The notes under the pieces were generated by a model, which made no database searches, had not been told where the DNA came from, and was given only the letters and a program-made list of their open reading frames with translations. A DNA stretch of 64,000 nt from a virus: positions 1-64,000 of IMG/VR virus record IMGVR_UViG_3300031576_000006; one strand, 5' to 3'. Of this stretch, positions 9,951 to 63,035 are shown piece after piece. The position numbers and the translations under genes were made by a program. The stretch's first letter is position 1. The number at the start of each line of letters is the position of its first letter.

Positions 9951-9978
9951 CAATAAGTTGAGCTAAGAACTTAATATT
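9951..9978 (+). promoter_or_regulatory. Late-promoter-like element A
   Basis: One of eight aligned 28-bp elements. This is the most divergent copy: CAATAAGTTG, then a core AAGAACTTAATATT. It ends 28 bases before the structural gene at 10007, which has an AGAGGA ribosome site. Confidence 0.65.
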
Positions 9979-10006
9979 ACTGAAGAATCTAAAAAAAGAG
10001 GACTAT

Positions 10007-10447
10007 ATGAAAGTTAAACGTACTCCAAAAAACACCGCCGCATTAGGGGCAAATGACATTGCCAGTATAACGGCGAATGCTAGGGCTGGAGCAGTTAAGT
10101 CATTACTGGTTGGTCCTGAGCTAAGGAAAATGCCAGGCCAGACTCCTCCGCAAAATCAAGTTATTGGTTTTACGGCCAACGCTGCTCCGGTAAAGATCCC
10201 ACCAGGAACATCACTTTGGCTGTTTAATAACAGCGCAACCGTTGCGTGGGCTACTATGGCTCCTGCAGATGCAACTATCACGGCACCAACCGGGATCACT
10301 AATGCAATTCCCTTGAAGCCAAATGATTGGACTCGTTTGAATATGGGCGAAAATGCTCAACTTCAAACCAGTGCAGCTACGGTCGGTGTTTATATCGTTG
10401 AAGATGACACCACATTTCAAGTTATTGCCGAAGATCAACAATTCTAA
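10007..10447 (+). CDS. Small virion structural protein
   Basis: 146 residues, Ala/Thr/Pro-rich and beta-prone, with phrases such as IPPGTSLWLFNNSATVAW and GVYIVEDDTTFQVI that are typical of small phage surface or decoration proteins. The C-terminal half of the 57175 protein has the same character. A late-promoter-like element ends 28 bases upstream and the ribosome site AGAGGA precedes the ATG. The exact virion location is unknown. Confidence 0.65.
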   Translation: MKVKRTPKNTAALGANDIASITANARAGAVKSLLVGPELRKMPGQTPPQNQVIGFTANAAPVKIPPGTSLWLFNNSATVAWATMAPADATITAPTGITNAIPLKPNDWTRLNMGENAQLQTSAATVGVYIVEDDTTFQVIAEDQQF

Positions 10448-10455
10448 GGTGCGGT

Positions 10456-11469
10456 ATGTACAGCAACGAGAAATTGGTTAGATCCATTTTAGGTGATCGG
10501 GTTTATGAGGCTTTAAATAAGTCTATCGTAAAGCTTAACACCAAAAGCGTTGTAGATATTTCCGAACTTCACGCGGCTTTAAAAATTGCCCCCAAGTCTG
10601 TAGTTGCTTTTTTAATGAAAGAAACTGAGGATATGAAAAAAGACGGGGCAAAAGAGATTAAATTGCCTTGGGACGGTAACGCTACAATGCTTTTAAATAA
10701 GCTCGATACAGATACATACAAAGGCCATATCTCAAAAGATGGCCGTATTGTCCACGAATTCGATCTATGTTCCATTCCACAATTAGCTGCCCACATCCTT
10801 TCTTTTTTCGAACTATATGATGAAGTTCCTGAACAAGGCGAACCGAAGGAAGAATCTAAACAAGAGCATGAAGATATAGAAAAAATCAAACATCAACTTC
10901 AAACCCTAGAATCTAAACTTAATGCCTTAATTATGCTTGCGGCTGGTCCCAGCCAAGAGCCCGTACAAAAAAGCCAGAAAGACAAACTTACAAAAGCCAT
11001 TACGGCTTTAAAAAAGGCTGGATTGGCACCCACTATGCCTAAGCCGCCAAAGCCTGGAGTTCATTCTGGAAGTCAACAGGGGATTACACAAGCTGGATTT
11101 CATAGTCCCAAAACTACGGAATCTGATTCATCCGTAGGCCGTCAAAAGACAAAAGAAAAAATGAATCCACATTTGAAAACTGGCGATAAGCTGGCTACTC
11201 AAAGTGGATTGCCTCAACCAGCTAAACAACCCAAGCAACCTAAAATGTCCATGGCGTTAAAGTCTGAAAGTATGAGTAGTAAGTGCCTAGATTGCGGAGA
11301 GCCTGATTTTATCAATGGTAAATTTGCTAGATGTGCTTGTTTCAAGGCTATGAGTATGCCCGATATTAAAAAATCTGAAAATGGTTTAACATTTTATTTC
11401 GGAAGTGATTGGGATAGCGACAATAAAATAGCATTATGGCATTCACTTAGGAAGGTAAGACGTGGATAA
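10456..11469 (+). CDS. Hypothetical protein with a C-terminal cysteine cluster
   Basis: 337 residues. A predicted coiled coil (around residues 135-165) follows a folded N-terminal part; the middle is Pro/Lys-rich and low in complexity. Near residue 275 a cysteine cluster C-x-x-C then C-x-C (CLDCGEP, ARCAC) looks like a zinc ribbon. Good ribosome site AAGGTGCGG. It overlaps the next gene by eight bases. No function assigned. Confidence 0.65.
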   Translation: MYSNEKLVRSILGDRVYEALNKSIVKLNTKSVVDISELHAALKIAPKSVVAFLMKETEDMKKDGAKEIKLPWDGNATMLLNKLDTDTYKGHISKDGRIVHEFDLCSIPQLAAHILSFFELYDEVPEQGEPKEESKQEHEDIEKIKHQLQTLESKLNALIMLAAGPSQEPVQKSQKDKLTKAITALKKAGLAPTMPKPPKPGVHSGSQQGITQAGFHSPKTTESDSSVGRQKTKEKMNPHLKTGDKLATQSGLPQPAKQPKQPKMSMALKSESMSSKCLDCGEPDFINGKFARCACFKAMSMPDIKKSENGLTFYFGSDWDSDNKIALWHSLRKVRRG

Positions 11470-12397
11470 AATTATTGCCGCTATAAGATTCAAAGAACTC
11501 GATACGTCTGTTGCTTCTGATATTGACATCCTTACAAACTATAATAAACAAAAGAGTGAAGCAAGGCATCATATTGTTTCTATGATCTTATCCGTTGGTG
11601 GTCGAGAAATTGGCGATCATGAATCTGATCTGATTGTTGAAATACCATTAGATTCAGCAAATATTCTGCGTGACGCCCACGCCCGATTGGAACATGAATT
11701 GGAAATTTCTACAACTATTGGCGTAGGGGACGATCTTAAATATGCCAAAATGGCATTAGATTGGGCTGTTGAAAACCGTCCCGGTACTATTAAAGTAATG
11801 GAGCCAGTAATCGAAAAAGAAGCTAAGAAGCTTGATGACAAAGATGACTTTGACCATCTTATGCCTGAAGATGTTGCTATAGATCAAGAAGGTCGCCCCG
11901 AACAACATATAAATAAGGCCGAGGGTGATACTGACGATTGGGCCAATGACAAGGAATCTATTTCTGATGAAATGAGAGCTAAAATTGTTAATATCGTTAA
12001 GATGTTGCAGGGCAATAAGGAACGTCTCAATAGCCTGCGGGAAACTAGTCCAGAAGTATATGCAGGCGTCGTTGGGTTAGTTAATTCTATTTCTGCTATG
12101 GCCCAGAGTGCTAAAGTGGAAGACGCTAAGGCCCATAGCAAGATGATCACTAAAGTATCTAAATACCTTGATCAATCTGAAGAAAAGAATTTGGATGATC
12201 AGGCTGCTTCGGTTATGGAAATGCTAATCGAAGCGATGAAAGAAAAAGAAGAAGAGCATAAGGCAGAAATGCAAACTATGCATCAGGGCGCAGAGCGTAG
12301 ATTTAAAGTTCGCCGTAAGCTTGCTATTGATCATGCCAATAAGACCGGCTCTGATCCGAAGTTTTTACTTAATCTAAATAGAACTATGAGACGTTAA
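11462..12397 (+). CDS. Hypothetical acidic helical protein
   Basis: 311 residues beginning with GTG inside the end of the preceding gene. It is acidic, helical and rich in Glu/Lys/Asp, with a likely coiled coil in the C-terminal third. No recognised motif. The tight overlap indicates coupled expression with the neighbours; a scaffold or structural role is possible but unsupported. Confidence 0.65.
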   Translation: MDKIIAAIRFKELDTSVASDIDILTNYNKQKSEARHHIVSMILSVGGREIGDHESDLIVEIPLDSANILRDAHARLEHELEISTTIGVGDDLKYAKMALDWAVENRPGTIKVMEPVIEKEAKKLDDKDDFDHLMPEDVAIDQEGRPEQHINKAEGDTDDWANDKESISDEMRAKIVNIVKMLQGNKERLNSLRETSPEVYAGVVGLVNSISAMAQSAKVEDAKAHSKMITKVSKYLDQSEEKNLDDQAASVMEMLIEAMKEKEEEHKAEMQTMHQGAERRFKVRRKLAIDHANKTGSDPKFLLNLNRTMRR

Positions 12398-12398
12398 G

Positions 12399-15300
12399 AT
12401 GCCAGAATCTTTGAAACACAGAATTTTAAATCCTACCGGCGAGCACAGTGATTCGTTTTATTTCAGCAGCTATGATAGCAGTAATGAGCACAAAGCCCAA
12501 CTGGAAGATTTGAAAAGAACCATTACCCCTGTTGAATTTATCAATCTCATTGCTGGTAAATATGGACACAGTTCTGTGTATTCGGATGAAATTGCCAAAG
12601 TATTTGAAGGTCATCCGCATAATAATCCAAAAAATGTTGATATCGCTATGAATCAATTATCATCTGATGATGCCTCTTCATCTGCAAGACAGAACCAACA
12701 AGAAAAAATGGTCGCTCTTTTACGCCATTTTCAAGTTTCTCCGAAAATGATAGAAAAAACCATAAGTATGCCTGAAAAATATGGAGGTATGGAGATTATT
12801 AAATCTGGCCGCCTCCCAATTAATAGCACTGCCAAAGTATTGAGCAATCAAAAAGCTCTTACGCCAGATCACATAAAAAAATTATTACAACACGAAAGTC
12901 AATTTCGAATCGAAGCTGGATTACTTCACCACCCTGCGGCCAATTTAGAAATACAAAAAGAAATAGCCCAAACTCCAAATGCCGAATTAGACGCAAATGC
13001 TGCTGAGGTATTAATAAACAATCACGCACTGCACGGAAATTTAGGTCCAAATCCTGATCAAATTTTATCACACCTAATAAGAAACAATCCACATCTCGGC
13101 ACCAATACCTTCGATAAAATTGCAGACCGAATGGACTTCGGTGCAATGGAAAAGTTACATAATGAACTTCTTGGCATTGATGGCGGTAAGCCAAATGATG
13201 GAGAAGATGCCATAAGTCCAGAGACAAATTGGAACAATTGGGAAAACGGTGATAAATTTAGTCATCGACATGAAGACGATTTAGCCGCATCAAGACATCT
13301 CACCCCAACCCAAGCTGAACACATAATGCGTCATGGGGATTTTGACTCTAAATGGAACCTCTTCAATAATAAAAGACTGGGAAGCAAATATGCCGATCAA
13401 ATGTATGAAAAATGGCTAAACGATGACTCTGATCATGGCTATGATTTAGATGCCTTTAAAGAAAAAATTAAAGAAGAGCATCCATTTGAATACGATGACT
13501 GGTACGAAGAGGCGCAACAGGCCGCCGAAGAAGATTATCCTATATCTACATTTATAAGAGATCATTACAACGATGAAGACTTGATGGGCGAACCACAAGA
13601 GGATTGGATTAAAAAACAACTTGAAAAAAATCACGATTGGACCCATAAGCTTGATGACAAACAGTGGCGTAAAAGAATGGCAAACAATGATACCAAAAAT
13701 CAAGATTGGCTTAAAATGCTTGATATGGTTACACCTGGGCTTCTCGGCCACAAAATGGGGAACATAACAAAAAGAGATGTTGAAAGTGCCGGAATTAGTT
13801 TAAATCAATTTCCTTATGATTTCACAGATCACCCAGATGATTCAATATCTTCTGATGATTTAATGGAAGAAATCGAAAAACAACATCCAAAAGAAGTAGA
13901 TTTTGCTGAAGATAACGACATAGAATCTCATCCAGAATATGATGGGCGGCACAAAGAAGAAGAAAATTCCTGGGATGAAGAAGTCAAACGCATATCGGAA
14001 AGAGATATGCCTGATAGTGTTTATGATTCTTACAGTGAATCCATGAGTGAGGATATCCATCAAAGGGCTGATAGGCTTTATAGAGATAAAATGGATAATG
14101 CTCATGAAGATGAAGAATTTTTACCAGATCATCTATCTGCTATAGCAGAAATCAAACGTAAACAGGCGGAAGTCAAAGAAGCGGCTGCATTTAAAGAAGC
14201 TCAAGCTAAAGAGGGTGCCGTTAAAGAAAAACTCGATCAATACATCCCAAACAGACCTAAAGAACATGCATATGGAGAAGGTCAGCATCATATGGAGCTT
14301 GCTAAACAATACTCTGATGCGAATAAGGGATCTATTGATATAGGCCACTTAAATAAAATGTATCCTAATCTTACTGAAAAATGGAAAAAGATTTTTGGCG
14401 GCAAAGGTAAAATATCGTCTGACGAACTTCAGCAAAAAATTGATGCTTTGCCAAAATCAAAGTACAATTTGAGCTATGGCCATTGGGGTCCACAGAATAT
14501 GCAGAACCTTAATGGTCAAGACGAGATGGTCGTTAGGTTAGATCACAGCCCAGAGACCTTAGCTGCTTTAAAAAAAGATCCTGAAGCTCATGATGTTTTT
14601 CAAAAAGTAAATGATGCGTCTCAAAGATCGGGTCACCCCACTAATTATAATACTATTGGTTGGGCTCGTGTAGACTTTACAAATCCTAAACATCCTATGG
14701 TTGATGAACTACAGTCTGACTTCTCATCTGCTGCAAGAGATTATCTTGCTGAACATGGCGAGACTGGTCAAGAAAAGGCTAAGGCTCTGGATAAAATCAT
14801 GCACATTCAAAAGAATTGGCGTGAAATTTTACTTAATGCTGTGACAAAGATCGCCGGAGCCAATGGTGCTGAAAAGCTTTCTACACATAGTCCCGAATCA
14901 AAAGCAGCCCATACAGGTGCAGGCAAGGTCCATTCTGTTTACAAAGATTCTTACGAAAAAATTCCCCGTCAATTAGGATTCAAATCCGCCCCAATGGAAA
15001 CCCTTCCTCTAAACGAAGAGGGTAAGGGTACATTCCTTATGTCTCGGTCTGGCACCCCAACTGAGGATTTATTATCACAACATAAAGAAGGGATGAATAT
15101 GCATGCTAGACTGTGGGATAGACACAAGGATTTGGCCGAAAACCCCGTAGAAATTGATAATGAACCCGTTCATATAGAGAACAGATTATCAAGAATTGCA
15201 GTCCATAAAAATCTTATAGAACATCATGCTTTTCTATATAAGCAGCATCAACAAAGACTATCTCAACTTGATCCTTCTCATGAATTGCGTACCGCAAAGA

Positions 15301-15944
15301 CACCTGGAATGTATGTAGGCACATACAAAGATAATAATCCTGTACCGGGTTTCGATTATATGGGACATGCGATCGATCGCGCTATTAATCATGAAGCTCC
15401 CGTTTTTAGTTTCGATAGTGCCTTAAAACAAGAACCTGCAGTTACTGTAGGGCACACTGGTCATACATTACCACTGGCCGTAAATGCTTTTAAAAAACAT
15501 ATCATGGTTCTTGATCTGCTTCAAAAAGCCCAGATGAAGGATGACGATAAGGTTGCTATTGCTCAAGCTCTTATGAATATTAAATCACAACAAGAAAAAA
15601 TCGAACAATTGAAGGCTCAAAACCCAGAAGCCTACGATACTATTTCTCAATTAACAGAAGTCCTCGTAGATCTTTTTAAGGAATTGAACAACGAGCCTAT
15701 TGAAGCGGTCCAACATCAACTCGAAGCCGAATCAGCTATGGCACCACAAGAACAAGCTACGGCACAAGCCCAAGGACAGGCAGGATTTAAACCTCCACCT
15801 GAAGAAAAACCTATTACCCATGGGCCGAAAACCTTACCTATAGGTGCTGAAAGAACTTATTCTTCTAAAGAAGCCAGGCAAAAAAGCCCAAGTGGTGAAT
15901 GGATATCTGTTCAGGGCGGCAATAAAACGCAGGGTTGGCAGTAA
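12399..15944 (+). CDS. Giant multidomain phage protein with a GWARVD/VDELQSD domain
   Basis: 1181 residues. The N-terminal half carries short repeated-looking helical segments (for example HHPAANLEIQKEIAQTPNAE) and is followed by a very acidic His/Glu/Asp-rich region (about 330-580). Around residue 750 lies TIGWARVDFTNPKHPMVDE followed by LQSD and then YEKIPRQLGF. This combination recurs in large multidomain phage and mobile-element proteins, but its activity is not known to me. The C-terminus is Gln/Ala-rich and partly coiled coil. The stop overlaps the next ATG (TAATG). Probably a virion or injected protein, by position and size. Confidence 0.65.
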   Translation: MPESLKHRILNPTGEHSDSFYFSSYDSSNEHKAQLEDLKRTITPVEFINLIAGKYGHSSVYSDEIAKVFEGHPHNNPKNVDIAMNQLSSDDASSSARQNQQEKMVALLRHFQVSPKMIEKTISMPEKYGGMEIIKSGRLPINSTAKVLSNQKALTPDHIKKLLQHESQFRIEAGLLHHPAANLEIQKEIAQTPNAELDANAAEVLINNHALHGNLGPNPDQILSHLIRNNPHLGTNTFDKIADRMDFGAMEKLHNELLGIDGGKPNDGEDAISPETNWNNWENGDKFSHRHEDDLAASRHLTPTQAEHIMRHGDFDSKWNLFNNKRLGSKYADQMYEKWLNDDSDHGYDLDAFKEKIKEEHPFEYDDWYEEAQQAAEEDYPISTFIRDHYNDEDLMGEPQEDWIKKQLEKNHDWTHKLDDKQWRKRMANNDTKNQDWLKMLDMVTPGLLGHKMGNITKRDVESAGISLNQFPYDFTDHPDDSISSDDLMEEIEKQHPKEVDFAEDNDIESHPEYDGRHKEEENSWDEEVKRISERDMPDSVYDSYSESMSEDIHQRADRLYRDKMDNAHEDEEFLPDHLSAIAEIKRKQAEVKEAAAFKEAQAKEGAVKEKLDQYIPNRPKEHAYGEGQHHMELAKQYSDANKGSIDIGHLNKMYPNLTEKWKKIFGGKGKISSDELQQKIDALPKSKYNLSYGHWGPQNMQNLNGQDEMVVRLDHSPETLAALKKDPEAHDVFQKVNDASQRSGHPTNYNTIGWARVDFTNPKHPMVDELQSDFSSAARDYLAEHGETGQEKAKALDKIMHIQKNWREILLNAVTKIAGANGAEKLSTHSPESKAAHTGAGKVHSVYKDSYEKIPRQLGFKSAPMETLPLNEEGKGTFLMSRSGTPTEDLLSQHKEGMNMHARLWDRHKDLAENPVEIDNEPVHIENRLSRIAVHKNLIEHHAFLYKQHQQRLSQLDPSHELRTAKTPGMYVGTYKDNNPVPGFDYMGHAIDRAINHEAPVFSFDSALKQEPAVTVGHTGHTLPLAVNAFKKHIMVLDLLQKAQMKDDDKVAIAQALMNIKSQQEKIEQLKAQNPEAYDTISQLTEVLVDLFKELNNEPIEAVQHQLEAESAMAPQEQATAQAQGQAGFKPPPEEKPITHGPKTLPIGAERTYSSKEARQKSPSGEWISVQGGNKTQGWQ

Positions 15945-16201
15945 TGTTGACAATAGAAGAAATCAAAAAAAGGATTAATGTGGTGCATCGGGGGCGTGTG
16001 GCGCTCGACATATCTACTTATGTAAAAACTACCATCAAGGCTCGTTTTATAGATTCTGAATACGGTGAATGGTGGGCCAAACCCAATGATATTTTTAATG
16101 GCCACGGGCATCCTAAAAAAGCTATTTATAAAAGAAACGATAAGCATCCTGGATCTGAACTTTGGGATAAAAATAAATTCAAACATCTTGGAATCATATA
16201 A
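15944..16201 (+). CDS. Stand-alone DNA-binding module of homing-nuclease type
   Basis: 85 residues from the ATG that overlaps the preceding stop (TAATG); an upstream in-frame TTG is less likely. The sequence LDISTYVKTTIKARFIDSEY, then GEWWAKP and GHGHPKK, resembles the DUF723-like DNA-binding repeat that I recall from free-standing phage nucleases. No catalytic motif is present. It is either a solo DNA-binding protein or the remnant of a homing endonuclease; family assignment is from memory of the motif. Confidence 0.6.
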   Translation: MLTIEEIKKRINVVHRGRVALDISTYVKTTIKARFIDSEYGEWWAKPNDIFNGHGHPKKAIYKRNDKHPGSELWDKNKFKHLGII

Positions 16202-16963
16202 ATGTTTAAAAAATATGATCTCGAAGAGCAATTAAAAGAATTTGGTTTTAGTATAGCTCAGCTGACAGATGAGATTACGGCTCGCGCTAAGTTGGCCATG
16301 GGCATACTTCAATTAAAAATTCATGCTAAGATTGTAGAAAAGGCACAGGAGAAACTTAAGTCAACTCGCGATATTTATATTGCCAATCTTGGTATGATGA
16401 ACGAGACAGATAATCTCTATGTAGTCTATCTTAAAAAAGAAGCTGCCTGGATTGAAGATGGTATAAAGCCGCATGAAATGATTGATGATCTTACGTCTGG
16501 TCCTAAGGCCAAACATAATACTAAAGACGGATCTCGATACGCCATTATTCCATTTCAGCACAATAAGCCGCCTACACAGACATCTAGAGCGCAAATGCAG
16601 ATTCAAAACGTAGTAAACGATGAACTGAAGAAACGTGGTCTTGATAAGACAATTAAAATAGGCAAGAAGGCTGTTTTAGGTAAGGCTGCTTCTATAAACG
16701 TTACAGACTTTGCTTCATCCGTAATATCTCGCAGATCTTTATTGGCAGGATTGACTATTTATCAGAAAAAGGTAGGGAAGAAGGTTATGAGAGACGTTAT
16801 GACCTTCAGAGTGGTATCTACAAAACAAAAAGGCTCCGGCATGTGGTTCCACCCTGGATCAAAAGGTGTCAACCTCTTCGCCGAAGTTGAAAAAGAGGTC
16901 GATCAAATGTGGGATCAATTGTTTAAAGATGTTGTTGGACAAGTTAAGATTGAGGGCACATAA
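16202..16963 (+). CDS. Neck or tail-completion protein, HK97 gp10-like
   Basis: 253 residues. The C-terminal part contains the phrase GMWFHPGSKGVNLF, characteristic of the HK97 gp10-like family of head-tail joining/tail completion proteins (x-W-x-HPGxxG). The N-terminal half is helical. It follows the previous gene with no spacing and ends on the first base of the next ATG, consistent with a head-tail joining cassette of 16202-17928. Confidence 0.65.
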   Translation: MFKKYDLEEQLKEFGFSIAQLTDEITARAKLAMGILQLKIHAKIVEKAQEKLKSTRDIYIANLGMMNETDNLYVVYLKKEAAWIEDGIKPHEMIDDLTSGPKAKHNTKDGSRYAIIPFQHNKPPTQTSRAQMQIQNVVNDELKKRGLDKTIKIGKKAVLGKAASINVTDFASSVISRRSLLAGLTIYQKKVGKKVMRDVMTFRVVSTKQKGSGMWFHPGSKGVNLFAEVEKEVDQMWDQLFKDVVGQVKIEGT

Positions 16964-17928
16964 TGATTCGCGCCAGTGATCTATATTTTACTCGCGTCAC
17001 ACAGCTTATGCTTAAGGACTTAAGGAAGAATCGTTTCTTGGTAGACGATATTCTTTGTGATGTTACCGGTGATGAACTATTAAAGGATCTTTATGGCGCT
17101 AAAGAAGTCGAAAAATTTAATTTGCTAGTTGACAAAGATATTCAAATTAATGTAGAGCATGCGGTTGATCACGCTAAACTTCCCGCTATTGCTATTCGAG
17201 TCAGCGGCGGTTCTGAAGATACCAGTCGTACTGGGGATGCCCTATCTGACGGTTATCGTACCGACAGGGTTGATGCAAAATCGCTTGGCGGAATTTATAA
17301 AACTCCTAGAATTATTCTAGGCCCCGTCACACCAGAATCATTTGATTATTTAACTGGAAAAATGACCTTTCCTGAGTCTGTAAGTCTTGCTCGTGTTTTT
17401 GATGAGATGATGGTATATGATGAAGTTAATAAAAAGGCCTATCCAATTGTCACCGTAATGAATGATTTTACACTATTCATAGATCCTCCAAAAGAACGTC
17501 CTAATTTGACCGGCATGACTATTCGCGGTAAGGATGAATCTGCAATACATGTCCGTAAGGAATATTTTACAACCGAACAGGTTACATTTATTTGTGCCGC
17601 CAAAGATCCAGTTGAGGTTATATATCTTTATCAGATTATGATGTACCTTATCGGTCGTCACAGGTTGAACTTCTTTGAGACTCGTAATTTTCGCAATACA
17701 ACTTTGCAATACAGCCCTATTTATAAGTTGACCGCCCCAGATGATCCTAATTTTGTTTTCGCCAGAGATATTACATTAAATGGTACTGTTGAACATAATT
17801 ACATCGAAAGCACTTCACGTCCACTTGACGGATCTTCTCCAGATGTAAGAATTGCAGACATGAAAACCCCAGATGCATTAATTGCACAGGCTTCTGGCCA
17901 AGGATGGTCTGGCGAAGAAGATCCATAA
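16963..17928 (+). CDS. Virion structural protein, probably tail-terminator region
   Basis: 321 residues, mixed alpha/beta, no membrane segment. Its start overlaps the stop of the gp10-like gene by one base (TAATG). The order, after a neck protein and a few genes before the sheath, suggests a tail-terminator or neck role. I see no motif that proves this. Confidence 0.6.
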   Translation: MIRASDLYFTRVTQLMLKDLRKNRFLVDDILCDVTGDELLKDLYGAKEVEKFNLLVDKDIQINVEHAVDHAKLPAIAIRVSGGSEDTSRTGDALSDGYRTDRVDAKSLGGIYKTPRIILGPVTPESFDYLTGKMTFPESVSLARVFDEMMVYDEVNKKAYPIVTVMNDFTLFIDPPKERPNLTGMTIRGKDESAIHVRKEYFTTEQVTFICAAKDPVEVIYLYQIMMYLIGRHRLNFFETRNFRNTTLQYSPIYKLTAPDDPNFVFARDITLNGTVEHNYIESTSRPLDGSSPDVRIADMKTPDALIAQASGQGWSGEEDP

Positions 17929-17932
17929 ATTT

Positions 17933-17960
17933 CAATAGGTTAAGTCAAAAACTTAATAAT
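17933..17960 (+). promoter_or_regulatory. Late-promoter-like element B
   Basis: Near-consensus copy: CAATAGGTTAAG then TCAAAAACTTAATAAT. It begins five bases after the 16963-17928 gene stops and ends ten bases before the ATG at 17970, so the transcript would have a very short leader. Confidence 0.75.
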
Positions 17961-20578: not shown

Positions 20579-20587
20579 TAAGAATTT

Positions 20588-20615
20588 CAATAGGTTGTGT
20601 TACAAACTTAATAAT
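20588..20615 (+). promoter_or_regulatory. Late-promoter-like element C
   Basis: CAATAGGTTGTG then TTACAAACTTAATAAT. Its last bases overlap the first possible ATG (20614) of the GIY-YIG gene. The natural target is presumably the tail sheath gene 400 bases downstream, with the endonuclease gene inserted between promoter and sheath. Confidence 0.72.
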
Positions 20616-21021
20616 GGGTCGTATGGTTATATACAGAATTGTAAATCAAATGAATCAAAAGTGCTATATTGGTCAAACAATTATGGAACCTAAAAAGCGA
20701 TGGAACGCACACAAATACAAGCGTGGTTCATCTGCCATACATTCTGCTATAAAAAAATACGGTATTGAAAATTTTACATTTGATATAATCGACCATACTT
20801 CGTCTTTGAATACAAAAAGTCAAATTCGTTTCTTCAAAAATTCATGCGGAGAAATTATAGAAGTATCGATCTTATCAGATTTTTGTAAAGGCTGTAATTT
20901 AACAGATTACAATATGAGGCGGGTTTTCAACGGAAAGCGCAAATCTCATAAAAATTGGACTCGCCCGTCTGATTTAGAAATAAAATTATTTTTAGAAAAT
21001 AACAGGAGTCACAATGTCTAG
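20614..21021 (+). CDS. Degenerate GIY-YIG endonuclease
   Basis: 135 residues; a start at 20626 (MVIYRIVNQ) is equally possible, because the ATG at 20614 lies within the promoter element. VIYRIVNQMNQKCYIGQT supplies the GIY and YIG strands, with HKYKRGSSAIHSAIKKYG behind them. After HTSSLNTKSQ the usual Glu-containing strand and the G-Y-N-L/GG stretch (present in the 9324 protein) are missing and the sequence jumps to a C-terminal DNA-binding-like part. So it seems to carry an internal in-frame deletion and is probably not an active nuclease. Overlaps the sheath start by eight bases. Confidence 0.72.
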   Translation: MGRMVIYRIVNQMNQKCYIGQTIMEPKKRWNAHKYKRGSSAIHSAIKKYGIENFTFDIIDHTSSLNTKSQIRFFKNSCGEIIEVSILSDFCKGCNLTDYNMRRVFNGKRKSHKNWTRPSDLEIKLFLENNRSHNV

Positions 21022-23821
21022 AACTTTTACTGATAGTAACGGAGTTACGTTAATTATCCCGGATAGTTCAGTAACCACTAACGTAGTTAGCCAGCCTACC
21101 GGTATTGCTACTACTGGAGTTATTGCTTTAGTCGGTGAGGCCGATCAAGGTTCACACTGGTCAGAAGAAGAAAAATTATCAGATAATAGCTTTGGTCCGC
21201 TCGACCTAGCGCGTGTTGTTTCTAAATACGGCTCAGGCCGACTTGTTGATGGATTCCGAGGTCTTATAGGTGCCTCATCTGGTCCAAGAATCCAAGGTTC
21301 TTTCAGTAGAGCTATTCTTGTAAAGCCTAACCTTGGCAATAAGGCTTCTAAGGCCACTGACGATGGTCACGGCACACTTAAGGCAAAATTAGCCGGTGCC
21401 CCTGGAAATAATATTAAAGAAACTATCTCTGCTGATACAGCAGAGGCCGCTCCTACTACTGGAAGCTTCTCTTATGTACCAAGTGCAAGTTCGTCTTCAT
21501 TGGCTGCCCGTGTAAACGGTGGAGCTAAGCAGACACTCGCAATATCCGCAGATCAAACACCTGCGTCTTTAGCCAGTGCCATCACCGGCTTAGCCAATCT
21601 TAATGCTGTTGGAGGAGTCGATCGAGTAATCACTTCCGGTCTTTCAATCGCAAACAGCGTTGCTGTTGCAGTAGTTTCAGGACAAAACGTAACTATTACA
21701 CTTACCGCTCCTGCAGTTTGGGGTGCTTCACCACAGGTTGGTGACACCGTTCGTATTCCACTCGGTTCTGTGATTGCCGGTGTCGCTAATGCCAACGTAG
21801 GTTGGTACTTAGTTACCGCATCATCTAACACTGCTACTCTCGCTCAGATTTCTGCAAAGAAAATCACAGCTGGTGCTCCAGTTGCCGTTTCAGCAGTTGC
21901 ATTCTCAGCTACTCCAGCAAGCGATATTGTAGATTACAGTTACATGAGAATTGACAACATGTCTGGCCGTAACAGAGATATTCTCTCTGCTTTAGTCGGT
22001 CAAAGTGCCGCTGTTACCGTAGCAGCTTCAGCCCTTACATTTACTTTGGTCGGTTCAAATGTTTTCAGCACTAAACCACGAGTCGGAGATATCGTATATA
22101 TCCCGTCAGGTTCGGCTTTCGCAGGCGCTGGTTCTGCAAACGTTGGATGGTATCAAATTACCGCTTCCAGCAATTTTGCAACTGCCGCATTCTTCACAGC
22201 TTCTCGTCTTTCTAACGGTTCACCTGTTGCCGTAGCCTCTACACCTATCGTAGCGACTACCGATATTCAAGACTACGATCGTCAGATCCGTGGTTCCGGT
22301 AAGGCATTGGAATTATATGACAACGCCGGTACTGTAAATGTTAATACAGTCCTCAAACAATTGGGTGCAGATTCTGCAGCTAGTTGGCTTGAAGTATTGA
22401 CTACCTCTTCCGCAGAACTCAAAAAACGAATTGATCTTTCTAAGCCAAATCCACTTGTTACCGAATCCTTTATTCACGGCGGAAATATCGTCCTTCAATT
22501 GGGATATAAAGGTACAACTGCAATTGCTACAGTAATCACTAGCTCTGGAATTAAAAAACTTCAAACTACCGTTACTGGTGGAGTCGGAGCCAATCTCGAT
22601 ATTACCTTGTCGAATTATAATTCAATCAGTGATTTGGTTGATTTTCTTAATCTACAGCCTGGATATAATGCAGCTGCACATTCTTCTCAAGAAGCTCAGC
22701 GCAATCCTTCTCAGGTACTTGATGAGGTTTCTGCAATCGGAATCGATTCAGATCTTTCCAATCGCCCAGGACGTATCAAAAGAGACATCTATGATATGAC
22801 TGCAGGTCTTGGAAACATCGCCCAAAATTCAGTATTAGTTACTTACGTAAATATTCTCAAAGCTGGTCTTCCGGAAGATGAAGGTCCTGCCTTCTTGTCT
22901 GGTGGAGCTAAAGGTGCGACTACTGGTTTGGCGTTTAGCCAAGCTATTGATGCATTGGCTAACGTCCGATGTAACTTCGTAGTTCCTCTTGCTAGCCGAG
23001 ACGCATCTGTTGACTCTGCTAACAATGAAACGGATGCCGCTTCAACATATACCGTTGATGCTATCAATGCCGCAGTGAAAACTCACTGTATTAATATGTC
23101 TACCCCTAAGGTTAAACGTCATCGCATTGGTTTCGTTTCTAAGAAAGGTACTTTCTCAGAAGCAAAAGCCTCTGCACAAACTATGGCGTCTTTCCGTATC
23201 GCTCACACTTTTGAAGATGCTAAGGATTTGGATAGTAATGCTAATATCTCTACCTTCCAACCTTGGATGGCTTCTTGTAAAGCTGCCGGTATGCAAGCCG
23301 CAGGATTTTACAGATCAATATTCAATAAGGCAATCAACATTTCTGGCATTGTTAATCCTTCAGGCTTTGACGATCAATCGCAGTCTCTTTGCGAAGATGC
23401 AGTTTCTGCAGGACTTCTTGTCATTCAACGTCAAGAAGATGGTACTTTTACTTTCTTGAGTGACCAATTGACTTATGGATTGGATAACAATTTCGTATAC
23501 AATTCTATTCAGGCTGTTTACGTTGCAGACATTATCTCATTGACTCTCGCCGAATCACTTAAGAAGGCTTTTGTCGGTGAATCAGTTGCTGACGTTACGC
23601 CGTCTGTTGCGATCTCATTCACCAAAGGTAAAATGGCAGAATTCTTGGATAAAAAACTCATCGTTGGAAGTTCTAAATTCCCATCTGGATGGAAAAATAT
23701 TCAAGTTACCATCGCCGATGGTGTTATGGCCGTTCGATGTGTCGTCATCGAAGCTACTTCAATTTACTTCATACCAATCAACGTTGATATCGAAGGTTTA
23801 CGTGACAGCGCAGCTGCTTAA
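21014..23821 (+). CDS. Contractile tail sheath protein
   Basis: 935 residues, longer than typical sheath proteins. N-terminal TGVIALVGEADQGSHW and GNKASKATDDGHGTLKAKLAG, then PGNNI, are sheath hallmarks. The C-terminal third (from about residue 560: DIYDMTAGLGNIAQNSVLVT, GGAKGATTGLAFSQAIDAL) is the conserved sheath core, and the end has the usual VVIEATSIYFIPINVDIEGL. Two related inserted domains occupy roughly residues 205-310 and 325-425; both contain GDxVxIPxGSxxAG and ANVGWYxxTASSN. Ribosome site ACAGGAG. Polymerises around the tail tube and contracts during infection. Downstream come an HNH gene and the tube. Confidence 0.92.
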   Translation: MSRTFTDSNGVTLIIPDSSVTTNVVSQPTGIATTGVIALVGEADQGSHWSEEEKLSDNSFGPLDLARVVSKYGSGRLVDGFRGLIGASSGPRIQGSFSRAILVKPNLGNKASKATDDGHGTLKAKLAGAPGNNIKETISADTAEAAPTTGSFSYVPSASSSSLAARVNGGAKQTLAISADQTPASLASAITGLANLNAVGGVDRVITSGLSIANSVAVAVVSGQNVTITLTAPAVWGASPQVGDTVRIPLGSVIAGVANANVGWYLVTASSNTATLAQISAKKITAGAPVAVSAVAFSATPASDIVDYSYMRIDNMSGRNRDILSALVGQSAAVTVAASALTFTLVGSNVFSTKPRVGDIVYIPSGSAFAGAGSANVGWYQITASSNFATAAFFTASRLSNGSPVAVASTPIVATTDIQDYDRQIRGSGKALELYDNAGTVNVNTVLKQLGADSAASWLEVLTTSSAELKKRIDLSKPNPLVTESFIHGGNIVLQLGYKGTTAIATVITSSGIKKLQTTVTGGVGANLDITLSNYNSISDLVDFLNLQPGYNAAAHSSQEAQRNPSQVLDEVSAIGIDSDLSNRPGRIKRDIYDMTAGLGNIAQNSVLVTYVNILKAGLPEDEGPAFLSGGAKGATTGLAFSQAIDALANVRCNFVVPLASRDASVDSANNETDAASTYTVDAINAAVKTHCINMSTPKVKRHRIGFVSKKGTFSEAKASAQTMASFRIAHTFEDAKDLDSNANISTFQPWMASCKAAGMQAAGFYRSIFNKAINISGIVNPSGFDDQSQSLCEDAVSAGLLVIQRQEDGTFTFLSDQLTYGLDNNFVYNSIQAVYVADIISLTLAESLKKAFVGESVADVTPSVAISFTKGKMAEFLDKKLIVGSSKFPSGWKNIQVTIADGVMAVRCVVIEATSIYFIPINVDIEGLRDSAAA

Positions 23822-28438: not shown

Positions 28439-28482
28439 GTTTTTCTTAAGAATGTTTTTCATTGTAAAAAGTCCAGTAATTC

Positions 28483-28510
28483 CTCTAACTTAGGCCAAAA
28501 ACTTAATGGT
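28483..28510 (+). promoter_or_regulatory. Late-promoter-like element D
   Basis: CTCTAACTTAGG then CCAAAAACTTAATGGT. It precedes the head block (28587 onward). The last bases differ from consensus (GGT instead of AAT). Confidence 0.72.
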
Positions 28511-29060: not shown

Positions 29061-29095
29061 TAAACGTCAAGTACTTAACCCTAAAGGAGTTAATA

Positions 29096-30031: not shown

Positions 30032-30042
30032 AGGAGAATGCC

Positions 30043-31425
30043 GTGTTAGAAAAAATTCAAGATTTAAAGAAAGCGTTAGAAGCAGGCTATCCCAGTGCCG
30101 CTCCTGGTGCTTTAACCCAAGGTGCCTCTCTTCAAGAGCCGGACCTGTCCAACATTATGAATGTTGCGACATTCCAAGACAGCGCAATTAAGTTGCAGAA
30201 AGAATTCAAAGTTGTTCCCGCTAAAGGAACTCTTGTGCAATTCAATCGCCAACTTGATTACGGTATTTTTGGGGGTTCCGCAGTACTAGAAGGTGCTGTC
30301 GGTCAAGAAGAAACCAGTAACTACGTTCGTGTGGTTGTTCCTATGGCTTACTACGTACATGTTAGACGTGTAACGTTGCAAGCTGAAATGGTATCCACAT
30401 TTGACGGTGTAAAAGCCGAAGATCGAGTTGCCGCCGATGCAGCTATTAAACTCGCTGCTGACATCGAATTTCATCTATTCCGAGGTCGCGCAAGCTACTC
30501 GAATGCTGGATTGTTCGATGGTAACCCTCTTGCCGCTGCTGATAATGAGCCGGGCATGCATGGATTGGATATGCAAATTCGTCAATCTGATGGACAAGCA
30601 AATACTCAGGATCTTATGTTGAATGAGTATGGCGCTGATAGTTCAGTTTCCATCAATCAAAACGGTATACTTGCACAATCAACCATGGAAGATATTTACA
30701 GTCGTGCCCAAATGCACAACGGTAATCCCGAAAAATTTTATCTCGATCCTTTGACTCATAGTGCATACAATAAAATTGCACATGGCAAAGAGCGTATCGT
30801 TCTTGCTGGTTCACCCCAACAAGCTACAGGCGCTCAATTGAAAGAACAATGGGTTGCTGGTGGAGCTATTTCCATCGAATCTAGCCGATTCCTTTCTGGT
30901 AAGACTGCTCCTGCACGTCCCCGATTGAACACCCCTTCTGCTCCTTCACAAACTGCCGCTGAGTTTGCTGGAACTACTAGCTTTCAAGCTGGTGAATCTT
31001 ATAGCTTTTCTTGTACTGCCGCTAACGAAGTTGGAGAATCTACTGCATCCACAGCTACTTCTCAAGCTATCAGCGTAAACGGTAACTATATTGCTGTAAC
31101 TATCACCCCTGCTGCTGGTATCGCTGCCCTTTACTTCAACGTTTACCGTTCAGTATCTGGAAGCCTCGTTAAACGCTACATTGGTCGTGTTAAGAATTCT
31201 GGCGCAGCCACTACTATTTTCACCGATCTTAATGGTCGTTCCCCTGCATTCGTCACTGGCTTTGCCCTTGATATGCGTGGAATCGAAATGAACGAACTTA
31301 GCCCATTTAAACAAGCTGAGTTGGCAAAAACCGATCTTAGTACTCCAAAAGCGTATTACAGATTCTGTTCTTTGGCAGTTAAACTTCCTCGCTTCAACAT
31401 CCTTGTTGATAACTTGAGCCAGTAA
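30043..31425 (+). CDS. Major capsid protein
   Basis: 460 residues, GTG start with AAGGAGAATGCC in front. It has the layout of HK97-fold capsid proteins of large myoviruses: an N-terminal KKALEAGYPSAAPGALTQGA segment, then LVQFNRQLDYGIFGGSAVLE, VRRVTLQAEMVST, AADIEFHLFRGR, and a C-terminal KAYYRFCSLAVKLPRFNILV. Residues about 297-400 (SAPSQTAAEFAGTTSFQAGE to the TDLNGRSP region) form an Ig/fibronectin-like insertion that would project on the capsid surface. The N-terminal segment recurs in the protein at the left edge of the window. A terminator follows. Confidence 0.88.
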   Translation: MLEKIQDLKKALEAGYPSAAPGALTQGASLQEPDLSNIMNVATFQDSAIKLQKEFKVVPAKGTLVQFNRQLDYGIFGGSAVLEGAVGQEETSNYVRVVVPMAYYVHVRRVTLQAEMVSTFDGVKAEDRVAADAAIKLAADIEFHLFRGRASYSNAGLFDGNPLAAADNEPGMHGLDMQIRQSDGQANTQDLMLNEYGADSSVSINQNGILAQSTMEDIYSRAQMHNGNPEKFYLDPLTHSAYNKIAHGKERIVLAGSPQQATGAQLKEQWVAGGAISIESSRFLSGKTAPARPRLNTPSAPSQTAAEFAGTTSFQAGESYSFSCTAANEVGESTASTATSQAISVNGNYIAVTITPAAGIAALYFNVYRSVSGSLVKRYIGRVKNSGAATTIFTDLNGRSPAFVTGFALDMRGIEMNELSPFKQAELAKTDLSTPKAYYRFCSLAVKLPRFNILVDNLSQ

Positions 31426-48548: not shown

Positions 48549-48558
48549 TCAGCATTAA

Positions 48559-48586
48559 CAATAGGTTACCTCAAAAACTTAATAAT
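48559..48586 (+). promoter_or_regulatory. Late-promoter-like element E
   Basis: CAATAGGTTACC then TCAAAAACTTAATAAT. Leads to the gene at 48614, whose ribosome site TTGAGGTG lies at 48599-48606. Confidence 0.8.
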
Positions 48587-48613: not shown

Positions 48614-48934
48614 ATGGCTAATGAAGATAATAGGCCTAAACCTACAATCAATGATCAAATTGCTTTGTATGTTTTACATGAAAGAGTTAACGAACTCAGA
48701 GAAGCGCATAGGCAGAAGGACGATAGGGATTTGCGGCTGTTTCAACAGCTGGCTGATGCCCAGAAGTCAACGTCTGAGCGTTTGGCGGTAGTCGAGACAA
48801 ATGATATTCATGTATCCCATGCAGTCATTAAACTTCAAAAAGAATCTTCGATACAAACTAAGCTTTTGACTGGTATTTTCCTGTCTGCTATCAGTGCGCT
48901 AATAACAATTATTGTTAAAGCTATTTTGGGGTAA
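48614..48934 (+). CDS. XhlA-like membrane-anchored coiled-coil protein
   Basis: 106 residues from ATG 48614; TTG 48599 is part of the ribosome site, so the longer frame is rejected. A soluble coiled coil (LHERVNELREAHRQKDDRDL, then TSERLAVVETNDIHVSHAVI) is followed by a C-terminal membrane span (LTGIFLSAISALITIIVKAI). Length and topology resemble XhlA-type holin-associated lysis proteins. Expressed late. The lysis role is inferred. Confidence 0.62.
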   Translation: MANEDNRPKPTINDQIALYVLHERVNELREAHRQKDDRDLRLFQQLADAQKSTSERLAVVETNDIHVSHAVIKLQKESSIQTKLLTGIFLSAISALITIIVKAILG

Positions 48935-48936
48935 TC

Positions 48937-49326
48937 ATGAAATTTGGAATCCAGATGTTAGAATCAGAGTCAACTCTCAATAACCTTATTCCTTCTAATC
49001 AGTTGGAGGTTAGCCCTGGTGAAACTGCCACAATAATGTTTCAATTGGTCAATGAAAAGACTGGACAGCGATACATACCTGCGTCTGGTGCGACCATGAC
49101 AGCACGTCTCGTCGCCAGTAATAATGTCAACGTCATAAGCAAGATCCCTACACAGCCCTTTGTTGCGGACGATAGATCTATTTGGTCATTCCCGTTGAGT
49201 GCAGTCGACACAGCTAAGGCGGCTGGAATAAATATAGAAGTTGTTTTGACCGAAGGCGCTAATATCAAAAAAGTTTGGGCTAAATCGGTACTTATCATGT
49301 CTCCCAATTCACCCTTTAAGGCATAA
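48937..49326 (+). CDS. Beta-rich virion protein
   Basis: 129 residues, Ig-like sequence pattern (VSPGETATIMFQLVNEKTGQ, GATMTARLVASNN). Sits between the membrane-anchored protein and a structural protein; probably a virion component. No family recognised. Confidence 0.6.
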   Translation: MKFGIQMLESESTLNNLIPSNQLEVSPGETATIMFQLVNEKTGQRYIPASGATMTARLVASNNVNVISKIPTQPFVADDRSIWSFPLSAVDTAKAAGINIEVVLTEGANIKKVWAKSVLIMSPNSPFKA

Positions 49327-49393
49327 TTATATGGAACTTTATTCAGATAAAAACATTATTCAGTTATCGAAATAACCGATTTGAGAGAATAAT

Positions 49394-50299
49394 ATGAGCG
49401 ATTTTTCAAATAAAAAACCAAATCCCCATGGAGCGTATCCATTAGACCATGAAGCCTTACCGGCAGATAGTACTAATGTGGGCAGTGGATTCACTCGCGT
49501 TGAAGCCTGGATGACCGTTGAGCGGCTTAAGGATGAATATCTATTCGGTATTCCCTTAATGAGTCCTATCACTCAACAGCGCCTCACGGACCCCGTTTTA
49601 AAGAACATTCTAACTAAGTCTGCTGCACGCATAGAGCTTGAGTGTAATATTGATGTATTCCCCCTTGTTCGTGTTGTTAGGCAGCCATTTGATCGCGTTA
49701 AGATGACTCAGGGCTTTAATCAGATCGATACTGGGGTTCGAAGCATTCGTGAACTTCTGGAAGTTTCCATACGTTCGTCTAATTCATCTCACACACAAAA
49801 TAATGTAGATTACCAAACAGACACAACCAATCGTGAAGGGTCTGTTTTGTATAATTTTCCTCTTGAATGGATAGATCCAAGTCTAATGAGAAAAGGTTTA
49901 ATTCATTTTGTTCCACTTCAATCGTCTGCCAATGGCACTATACCGGGCGGATTGATTGGCGGCACTGCCGCACCGTTATTTCAAATTCTTACTCAGTTGA
50001 CTAGTATTCCTGGATATTTCTTTATCCGTTACGCTTCTGGTTGGCAGGAGAATTCTATTCCATCTACAGTTAACGACCTTATTGGCACTTATGCCGCTAT
50101 GGAAGTACTTTCATTACTAGGTCCTACTAATCGATGGAACAGTCAAAATATTGGTATTGATGGAGCCAGTCAGGGTATTTCTGGTCCGGGCAACCAACTT
50201 TTTGCTCTGAGAATGCAAGAATTAACAGCTAAGGCCGATCAATTGAGAGATCTTATTAAGAAGCGTTTTTCAAACGCTATCTTCATGCGGCATATTTAA
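49394..50299 (+). CDS. Virion structural protein, possible head-neck
   Basis: 301 residues. YNFPLEWIDPSLMRKGLIHF, FFIRYASGWQENSIPSTVND and an LIGTYAAMEVLSLLGPT segment look like a large-phage neck or head-completion protein; I recall this composition from cyanophage-type structural proteins but cannot assign a family. Weak ribosome site GAGAGAA. Confidence 0.6.
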   Translation: MSDFSNKKPNPHGAYPLDHEALPADSTNVGSGFTRVEAWMTVERLKDEYLFGIPLMSPITQQRLTDPVLKNILTKSAARIELECNIDVFPLVRVVRQPFDRVKMTQGFNQIDTGVRSIRELLEVSIRSSNSSHTQNNVDYQTDTTNREGSVLYNFPLEWIDPSLMRKGLIHFVPLQSSANGTIPGGLIGGTAAPLFQILTQLTSIPGYFFIRYASGWQENSIPSTVNDLIGTYAAMEVLSLLGPTNRWNSQNIGIDGASQGISGPGNQLFALRMQELTAKADQLRDLIKKRFSNAIFMRHI

Positions 50300-56237: not shown

Positions 56238-56282
56238 TAATATAATGCAGAAATCTTTTATTGCTCTATTGGTTAATAATAT

Positions 56283-56310
56283 CAATAACTTATCCTAAAA
56301 ACTTAATAAT
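56283..56310 (+). promoter_or_regulatory. Late-promoter-like element F
   Basis: CAATAACTTATC then CTAAAAACTTAATAAT, 54 bases before the ATG at 56365. Downstream leader contains a small inverted repeat around AGTCTTCGGACT (56335-56346). Confidence 0.78.
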
Positions 56311-56364: not shown

Positions 56365-57096
56365 ATGGCCAATGAAAGAAAATGGTTTGCAGTAACGCAG
56401 GCCTTCACAGCTAACGGTACACTTCAGGGAAAGATCACGGTAGCAGATGTTGCCGGATTATACGTCAAGTCCAAAGTCAGGATTTCCTCCAATACACAAC
56501 CCCCTCAATTACTTGAAATCAAAAGAATAGAAGGCACAACAGTCCTCTTTGTTGGACTGTGCGGTGACAATATCAATGATCGCACTGATATGTCAGCCTA
56601 TCTCGTTATAGATTCTGCTAAAGTAGAGCTTTTTGAACAAAAAATCCCAACAATCAAGCAAGAAGATATAGCTCAGGCTGTCTATGCCAGGGAGCCAATC
56701 TGTGCGATCCGAACTATCGGTGTTGATAAGTATGGTCGATATTATGATGCCAACAACAGGTTTCCGGTCGATGCCACTGTTACCATTGGCGATGTTTTAG
56801 TCAATGTTGAAAATCCTACAATACCGGATATCGCCAATGTCTCGGTCCCGCTGGCTGCCACTGAAGTTTCATTCACTTTCCCACTTAAGACCAAAAGATT
56901 CTTAATGAGAATCCGCGATGGAAGTGCAAATATACAGCTGGCATTCATAGCTGGGCAAAGTGGAACAAATTACACAACAATTTCTAGGGGTTGCAATTAT
57001 GGATCTGGGGATATCGATCCGCCTGATCCATTCAGTATCTATTTCCAATGTGATAAACCTGGCAAAACGGTTGAGATTTTATCCTGGAACAATTAA
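56365..57096 (+). CDS. Virion structural protein
   Basis: 243 residues, beta-rich, with ANGTLQGKITVADVAGLYVK and FPLKTKRFLMRIRDGSANIQ. Single gene between late elements F and G. The C-terminal half resembles small phage structural domains. Exact role unknown. Confidence 0.63.
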   Translation: MANERKWFAVTQAFTANGTLQGKITVADVAGLYVKSKVRISSNTQPPQLLEIKRIEGTTVLFVGLCGDNINDRTDMSAYLVIDSAKVELFEQKIPTIKQEDIAQAVYAREPICAIRTIGVDKYGRYYDANNRFPVDATVTIGDVLVNVENPTIPDIANVSVPLAATEVSFTFPLKTKRFLMRIRDGSANIQLAFIAGQSGTNYTTISRGCNYGSGDIDPPDPFSIYFQCDKPGKTVEILSWNN

Positions 57097-57106
57097 TTAG
57101 TTAAAT

Positions 57107-57134
57107 CGCTAACTTAGGCCAAAAACTTAATAAT
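57107..57134 (+). promoter_or_regulatory. Late-promoter-like element G
   Basis: CGCTAACTTAGG then CCAAAAACTTAATAAT. Starts eleven bases after the stop at 57096 and ends 40 bases before the ATG at 57175 (ribosome site GGAAGG). Confidence 0.8.
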
Positions 57135-57174: not shown

Positions 57175-57924
57175 ATGGGCGGAATGATAGGAAAAGATAG
57201 ATTGATTTTTGATCCAACGGATACCACTCAAGGTGACAATGTTGGAGCTTTCATACGTGCCAGTGACGGCACCTTGATCACTCATACGGCTGTCGGCCCT
57301 AAAAAGGCTCTTGATGTAAATATCGTCGCGGGTCCCGACGACCCAGTTTATGATGAAGATTCTGCTTCTGCAAATGGCGATAAGCTTATGTCTGTCGGCG
57401 CAGTTAGACAAGATGCTTTGGCATCAAGCGTTGACGCTGACGGCGACTATGCCTGGTTTAAATTAAACAGCCGTGGCGCACTATGGACAGCACCTGTTGG
57501 TACGGTTGCCGATGACGCAGCTGATACTGAAAACCCGGTAAAGATCGGTTCGCGGTCTGTTTCTGGCGCAGCCTTACTCGCTGTTTCATCTAACAATGAC
57601 CGCGCTGATTTGATTTCAGATAAATATCGTAGGATTTATATTAATGACAGCCCAAACATTGGACTGGCATCTGTAGCTGTGCCCGTCGATACCACTGCCG
57701 GTGGGACTGCGATACCAACAACAGCTTTAGCCGGTAGACGACGAATTATGGTTCAGAACCTCGGAACAAAAGATATTTACGTAGGACCTGCAGGTGTAAC
57801 AGATACATCTGGCCTTAGAGTCGCGAATGGTGCAACTCTATCTCTCGAAATTGGCGAAAACATACTCCTTAAAGCCATTGCCGCTTCTGGTTCTCAAGAT
57901 GTTCGAGTGTTCGAATTAGCATAA
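57175..57924 (+). CDS. Virion structural protein
   Basis: 249 residues, Ala/Thr/Asp-rich. The C-terminal part (RRRIMVQNLGTKDIYVGPAG, ATLSLEIGENILLKAIA) resembles small phage surface domains and the character of the 10007 protein. Late gene with three more following in the same operon. Confidence 0.63.
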   Translation: MGGMIGKDRLIFDPTDTTQGDNVGAFIRASDGTLITHTAVGPKKALDVNIVAGPDDPVYDEDSASANGDKLMSVGAVRQDALASSVDADGDYAWFKLNSRGALWTAPVGTVADDAADTENPVKIGSRSVSGAALLAVSSNNDRADLISDKYRRIYINDSPNIGLASVAVPVDTTAGGTAIPTTALAGRRRIMVQNLGTKDIYVGPAGVTDTSGLRVANGATLSLEIGENILLKAIAASGSQDVRVFELA

Positions 57925-57931
57925 GGTAAAA

Positions 57932-58177: not shown

Positions 58178-58186
58178 AGAGGTTTC

Positions 58187-59680: not shown

Positions 59681-59682
59681 GT

Positions 59683-60907: not shown

Positions 60908-60913
60908 AAATTC

Positions 60914-60942
60914 TTGTATCTATTAATCAATTGGGTTAGTAT
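60914..60942 (+). promoter_or_regulatory. Sigma70-like promoter predicting a leaderless mRNA
   Basis: TTGTAT (60914-60919), 17-base spacer, TAGTAT (60937-60942), then six bases and ATG 60949. Same geometry as 47245 and 62956. Confidence 0.65.
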
Positions 60943-60948
60943 TGATAC

Positions 60949-62672: not shown

Positions 62673-62949
62673 AGCCAAACATCAATCGACCTTCTTTATT
62701 ATTCCCTTCAATTGATATGTATTTGTTAATCACAGCCCTAGCATTATGACCAGTACTAAAGATGATCAATGGCATAGTGTAAGGAACAAGTACCTCGCTG
62801 ACAAAAGGACCGGCCACTTTCTTAGCCTGCATCTCACCACGCTGTACCATTTCCCTAAACTCCTTATTCTGTGCGTAGTAAGCCTCTGGAGTCTTATTAC
62901 ACTCGTATCCACTGACACACATAGCAATAACGAACGCTTCTAACCACAT
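62662..62949 (-). CDS. Small exported-looking protein, leaderless
   Basis: 95 residues from ATG 62949. MWLEAFVIAMCVSGYEC is hydrophobic at the start, like a signal peptide or membrane anchor; a conserved-looking VPYTMPLIIFSTGHN follows. The longer frames upstream include the promoter. Overlaps the convergent aminotransferase end by eleven bases. Confidence 0.6.
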   Translation of the reverse strand: MWLEAFVIAMCVSGYECNKTPEAYYAQNKEFREMVQRGEMQAKKVAGPFVSEVLVPYTMPLIIFSTGHNARAVINKYISIEGNNKEGRLMFGFTF

Positions 62950-62955
62950 ACTGAC

Positions 62956-62984
62956 AATATACCACATGTCAGCACTTTGTGCAA
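62956..62984 (-). promoter_or_regulatory. Sigma70-like promoter predicting a leaderless mRNA
   Basis: Minus strand TTGCAC (62979-62984), 17-base spacer, TATATT (62956-62961), then six bases and the ATG at 62949. Same geometry as 47245 and 60914. Confidence 0.65.
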
Positions 62985-63007
62985 TTAACACCAATATCCA
63001 ATGATAT

Positions 63008-63035
63008 CGCTAGCTTAGCTCAAAAACTTAATAAT
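63008..63035 (+). promoter_or_regulatory. Late-promoter-like element H
   Basis: CGCTAGCTTAGC then TCAAAAACTTAATAAT, 47 bases before the ATG at 63083. Confidence 0.8.

Follow-up and report, generated by a model that had tools for sequence, protein, structure and literature searches.

An upstream element of about 36 bp as the probable late promoter of an Mx1-like myovirus, with a phage-encoded sigma factor as its presumed reader

Using a combination of approaches (matrix scans, ortholog comparisons, word counts, start-codon geometry, profile searches and structure modelling), we propose with considerable confidence that an element repeated along the first 64 kb (hereafter the window) of a virus contig of 116,231 bases functions as the late promoter of a myovirus related to Mx1, where it would be read by the host core polymerase associated with a sigma factor of phage origin. 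The element very probably serves as the switch that turns on the particle-building genes. We infer its late timing from the virion genes downstream; its recognition by sigma, the leaderless translation and the existence of a reader for its left half are proposed from the sequence comparisons given below. The preliminary description had suggested a late promoter for a phage-altered polymerase specificity, and this suggestion is supported by the strand bias of the element, its location at the heads of late operons, its retention at orthologous genes, its fixed geometry relative to the predicted transcription start (+1) and the finding that its variants follow the sigma phylogeny.

Table 1. Coordinates of the elements and of the genes discussed in the text. 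The 28-mer is the part of the element first described; G numbers designate related contigs.
Feature	Coordinates	Strand	Remarks
Element, ninth copy (missed before)	7539..7574 (28-mer 7547-7574)	+	Within the 3' end of ORF 5244-7685; predicted +1 ~7581; next start 7686; counterpart in G001 at 103350, likewise within the upstream gene
Element	9943..9978 (28-mer 9951-9978)	+	Before ORF 10007; predicted +1 ~9985; kept at the ortholog in G001, G002, G003, G011, G012
Element	17925..17960 (28-mer 17933-17960)	+	Kept in G001, G002, G006, G012
Element	20580..20615 (28-mer 20588-20615)	+	Before an inserted GIY-YIG ORF, then the tail sheath gene
Element	28475..28510 (28-mer 28483-28510)	+	Before ORFs 28587-31425, the last being the major capsid gene
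Element	48551..48586 (28-mer 48559-48586)	+	Before ORFs 48614-50299, the last matching a tail fibre family; kept in G003
Element	56275..56310 (28-mer 56283-56310)	+	Before ORF 56365-57096; kept in G006, G011
Element	57099..57134 (28-mer 57107-57134)	+	Before ORF 57175-57924
Element	63000..63035 (28-mer 63008-63035)	+	Before ORFs 63083 onward; kept in G001, G003, G006, G011, G012; core in Mx1
Tail sheath gene	21014..23821	+	Putatively served by element 20588; phrog_279 E=6.6e-26; 38.7% identity to Mx1 tail sheath
Major capsid gene	30043..31425	+	Putatively served by element 28483; phrog_752 E=9.3e-35; 52% identity to Mx1 major capsid protein
Contig left end	1..361	+	ORF 92-361 matches the Mx1 13002-16721 'prohead protease' gene

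The eight 28-bp copies initially reported are all present on the plus strand where they had been placed (Table 1), and the positions given as invariant (C1, T4, A5, T8, T9, A15, A18, A19, CTTAAT at 20-25 and T28) are so in 8/8 of them and in 11/11 copies of the contig. The count of eight was too low: the window holds a ninth copy at 7547 (26 bits with a matrix built from the eight sites, the next-best match in the window reaching 11), and two more, both on the plus strand, occur at 73554 and 83543, in the remaining 52 kb of the contig. Similarly, the 28-mer is real but the full element extends over about 36 bp, with an invariant A located 8 nt upstream of C1 in 11/11 contig copies and also in most sites of the relatives. 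The loose direct repeat noticed within the element is not conserved, A19 being replaced by T in several relatives (ATCTTAAT), whose left side shows no corresponding change. As to the statement that every copy precedes a late structural gene, it is nearly right, the exceptions being the 20588 and 7547 copies and several downstream genes of unknown function.

Scanning the two strands of the whole contig with a weight matrix placed 11/11 true sites on the late strand, far above the other matches; with the matrix derived from the nine window sites, the true sites scored 32-41 and the best non-site match in the 116-kb contig scored 10. A regular expression for the element matched 11 times on the plus strand and once on the minus strand, the latter being consistent with a weak matrix match at 110016, inside a gene; in simulated genomes it matched once in 40. 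The copies are spaced kilobases apart, on one strand only, and nine of the 11 midpoints are intergenic by mechanical gene calls (the source of all gene starts used here, except where the Mx1 annotation is cited), intergenic DNA representing about 6% of the contig. A tenth midpoint (copy 17933) is intergenic too provided that the following gene begins with ATG 17970, its likely start, in which case the mRNA would be almost leaderless, and the same likely holds for the GIY-YIG ORF following element 20588, with a predicted start at ATG 20623. The aligned elements have no conserved TTGACA-like hexamer at the spacing of host sigma-70 promoters (TTGACA, 16-18 nt, TATAAT). The early genes had been described as sigma70-type blocks, a description that gained no support from a simple scan for sigma-70 promoters in the early region, where matches were at the level of shuffled sequence.

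Two GIY-YIG homing-endonuclease-like ORFs (20614-21021 and 9324-9929) adjoin late-promoter elements. The former separates the element from the tail sheath gene, and in the relatives checked the element stands directly before the sheath gene, which is immediately preceded by a site in 6/6 clade A relatives tested and by the core of the element in Mx1, G019, G025 and G018. In the early region, the minus-strand ORF 36138-36758 shows a short match to collagen-like/tail-fibre families, an odd place for a virion-type protein.

As judged from its sequence, the contig is part of the genome of a phage related to Myxococcus phage Mx1, which is a virulent myovirus of 169.6 kb with a complete record (OR576727.2); closer relatives, with 64-89% capsid identity, occur in IMG/VR. 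Compared to Mx1, the contig starts inside the counterpart of the 'prohead protease' gene, and the section carrying the helicase, sigma, terminase, portal and DNA polymerase genes is absent from it; given this starting point, the terminase, portal and sigma genes are missing from the fragment. No capsid relatives were found in the genome collection, and when the whole collection was scanned with the strict 28-bp pattern, scattered matches appeared in 8 stretches; sigma was sought in two of the contigs concerned and gave no match, so that searching for the exact pattern is a poor route to relatives. Mx1 was reported to be the first phage isolated on Myxococcus xanthus, and its DNA may contain unidentified minor pyrimidines (PMC6070905). 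Such base modification could bear on promoter recognition.

The following lines of evidence show how the element is conserved. First, the close relatives, with genomes of 36 to 54% GC, each carry their own version of the element on the late strand (AAAACTTAAT, AAAATCTTAAT, AAGATCTTAAT etc.). Second, the orthologs of the site-bearing genes of the window possess a site in 31/43 cases, as compared to 11/163 for the other late-strand genes (Fisher P=5e-18, a nominal value as related phages are counted as independent, the contrast being large). Third, unbiased counts of 7-mers upstream of late-strand genes, which made no use of the motif, highlighted [AT]C[CT]TAAT or [CT]AATCTT in 17/21 contigs of 36 to 65% GC, the exceptions being the short contigs G007, G010 and G017, plus G032; the same counts on the opposite strand yielded mainly ribosome-binding-site-like words. 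The word [AT]C[CT]TAAT corresponds to the right half of the element in the subgroup of the window phage (subgroup A), and [CT]AATCTT to Mx1 and subgroup B. The two subgroups share the core Y-A-A-T-N-N-T, to which subgroup A adds conserved upstream blocks, whereas subgroup B has essentially the core alone. A single −10-like element devoid of upstream block is found in the Mx1 subgroup and in G013, where the core resembles that of subgroup A but lacks the left half; the window phage, like its close relatives, departs from this arrangement in having the extra block at −42 to −25. The matrix derived from the window and the close relatives did not work in Mx1, since, as inspection of upstream regions showed, the core alone is present there.

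The distance between the core and the start codons provides what we regard as a sequence-only map of +1, with many predicted leaderless late mRNAs. In subgroup B, 32 ORF-opening ATGs are at a distance of exactly 13 nt from the core, counted from its first base, the mean of the other offsets being 2.7; in subgroup A there are nine such offset-13 ATGs, against a mean of 1.8 at the other offsets. Control patterns produced no ATG excess comparable to that at offset 13. The offset-13 starts include three that were annotated by the depositors of Mx1 (36563, 75289 and 121405). Furthermore, for the protease-like gene, in subgroups A and B alike, the start codon (ATG or GTG) is found at offset 12 or 13 (Mx1, G033, G001, G002, G003, G006, G007 and G011); the Mx1 'prohead protease' was probably annotated with a start (13002) 21 nt upstream of the true one, for which we predict the leaderless ATG 13023. 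At the subgroup B sites with no start codon there, offset 13 is occupied by a purine in 84% of the cases (P=4.5e-9), with a pyrimidine before it. The non-leaderless sites of subgroup A display no purine peak at offset 13 (51%), and the exact +1 in this subgroup thus rests on the nine offset-13 ATGs; in the window itself, the two start codons nearest to elements are at offsets 14 and 16. At other sites, the element and the start codon are as much as about 100 nt apart. Taking offset 13 as +1 would place the core at −13 to −7, the left block of subgroup A at −34 to −25 and the upstream A at −42, which is the standard geometry of a sigma promoter.

A putative sigma factor is annotated in Mx1 (WNM70309.1, 2071-3078), near the terminase and portal genes. 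We found homologs in 7/7 close relatives tested and at 34 IMG/VR loci, and Mx1 was the only one of 50,697 annotated phage records with a detectable homolog. The window contig, an incomplete fragment, has no sigma gene; judging from the relatives, that of the window phage would lie in the missing part of the genome. The alignment of a profile of 29 sequences with RpoD extends from region 2 to the vicinity of residue 571, at the start of region 4 (E=1e-17), and the AlphaFold model of the protein (mean pLDDT 81) matches sigma-70 holoenzyme chains and viral sigma factors. Since 27/28 examined homologs terminate no more than about 30 residues from the LKG[VI] motif conserved in region 4.1, the helix-turn-helix of region 4.2, the part that reads −35 elements, is missing; the phage sigma retains regions 2, 3 and 4.1 in one chain. 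A sigma-70-family protein of this truncated kind is encoded by Mx1 and by the 28 related contigs examined. In line with this truncation, searching 13 records with Sigma70_r4 gave nothing above the cut-off (controls 14/14) and a single weak sub-cut-off match, which contains an internal stop codon.

Upstream of region 2.1, the N-terminal ~130 residues of the sigma form a conserved, confidently predicted helical domain with no sequence match in RpoD, which could take part in promoter reading. In G012 (67598-68884, outside the window) the sigma is fused in frame to a GroES-like small protein, a case met in one of 28 homologs; in most relatives this small protein is encoded by a separate gene after sigma, and this pairing is encountered in subgroups A and B alike. 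We examined the ~95-aa gene adjacent to sigma as a candidate sigma-4 or left-half reader but discarded it, since the fold predicted for its product matches GroES-type co-chaperonins (best E 0.005). A phylogenetic profile for the left-half reader yielded no obvious DNA-binding candidate.

The contigs that possess the complete bipartite element group together in a single clade of the sigma tree (support 100/100), on a long branch, a shared phylogeny that could also arise if sigma and element were both simply following the phage lineage. These data bear on the rival proposal that the element is the promoter for a host alternative sigma or for an activator-remodelled host polymerase, the phage sigma doing something else. 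The upstream block of the bipartite form, which might accommodate an activator or host region 4, and the absence of region 4.2 from the phage sigma would both suit this proposal. We nevertheless regard it as improbable, because the core AAT..T is common to phages of very different GC, the type of element follows the sigma phylogeny, and the sigma occurs in every close relative tested and, in Mx1, near the terminase and portal genes.

Reading of the element by a phage-encoded RNA polymerase, single-subunit or multi-subunit, a possibility left open by the preliminary description, is very improbable. Its length, high conservation and lack of gaps do recall the promoters of phage polymerases, but the core is a −10 element situated at −12 to −7, which is typical of sigma promoters; the left part is dispensable across the family; and no match to the beta-subunit family was found in 13 records (Mx1, which is complete, and fragments), the controls being recovered 14/14. 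As no beta gene was found, the likely enzyme is the host RNA polymerase with the phage sigma. The search for a single-subunit polymerase also gave no match, its controls being uninformative. Finally, although the element is short, repeated and ahead of genes, we give hardly any credit to a non-promoter RNA or DNA signal (translation enhancer, RNA processing site, origin iteron or packaging signal), since the offset-13 ATGs leave too little room for a Shine-Dalgarno leader, the distance to the start codon varies widely elsewhere, the copies are far apart on a single strand, and the offset-13 purine at non-leaderless sites is a signature of +1.

For the sigma-dependent late promoter that we favour, we propose the following mechanism. 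The host core polymerase carrying the phage sigma would melt and read the right part of the element, TAATNNT (positions 22-28), as a −10 element, and would start RNA synthesis about 13 nt downstream of T22, at element position 34-35. At many promoters of the family, +1 would coincide with the first base of the start codon, thereby generating a leaderless late mRNA. In the subgroup of the window phage, the second block, at the −35 location (the A and the C..TA..TTA motif), would add specificity. As the sigma ends short of region 4.2, the block probably has another reader, for which the candidates are a separate phage DNA-binding protein, the C-terminal domain of the polymerase alpha subunit and the remaining surface of sigma. 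More tentatively, and at somewhat less than an even chance, we suggest that the two-part promoter of subgroup A works with a sigma devoid of the −35-reading helix-turn-helix, that the block is read by a second phage protein (a separate 'sigma-4' or MotA-like protein) or by an unusual surface of sigma, and that it was gained after the split from the core-only relatives.

This work offers a testable promoter scheme for the whole Mx1-like family, with a start site predicted to the base; a limited search of the open-access literature found no published promoter or transcription scheme for these phages. If the scheme is true, a large lytic phage would often use leaderless mRNAs for the translation of its protease, baseplate and other late genes.

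Several known systems invite comparison. In phage phiEco32, the sigma gp36 has no region 4 and reads the middle/late promoters, which have a single −10-like element, tAATGTAtA, transcription starting 6-8 bp downstream (PMC8948821). The Mx1-like phages resemble it in having a phage sigma truncated in region 4 and sites ahead of late genes, [CT]AATCTT of the Mx1 subgroup being organised alike; they differ in that phages and sequences are not the same, the sigma here has kept its regions 3 and 4.1, the predicted start of transcription often coincides with the start codon, and the subgroup of the window phage has an upstream block. In Salmonella phage 7-11, SaPh711_gp47 has a homolog of region 4, and the late promoter is bipartite, GTAAtg-16-aCTA (PMC8948821). 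The bipartite late promoter and the use, presumed for the Mx1-like phages, of a phage sigma with the host core polymerase are points of likeness, but the region 4 homolog explains the −35 block of 7-11, whereas the sigma of the window's relatives lacks it, and the sequences and spacing differ. The late promoters of T4 depend on gp55, gp33 and the clamp gp45, the similarity of gp55 to sigma being confined to domain 2 (PMC2988020). T4 and, as proposed here, the Mx1-like phages employ a highly diverged phage protein of the sigma family, a −10-like element and the host RNA polymerase, with no −35 reader, but the likeness of gp55 to sigma is limited to domain 2, as opposed to regions 2, 3 and 4.1 in one chain here. 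An upstream block comparable to that of the window phage is not known from T4 late promoters. T4 middle promoters, which use host sigma-70, have one (the MotA box) at about −30, some 12 bp before the −10 element, with no standard −35; the block of the window's subgroup is similarly placed, its sequence being unrelated. Together, these comparisons suggest that subgroup B fits the phiEco32 pattern, whereas subgroup A would be bipartite despite a sigma lacking region 4.2, a departure from the phiEco32/7-11 pattern, in which a −35 block goes with sigma region 4, that points to a further promoter-reading factor.
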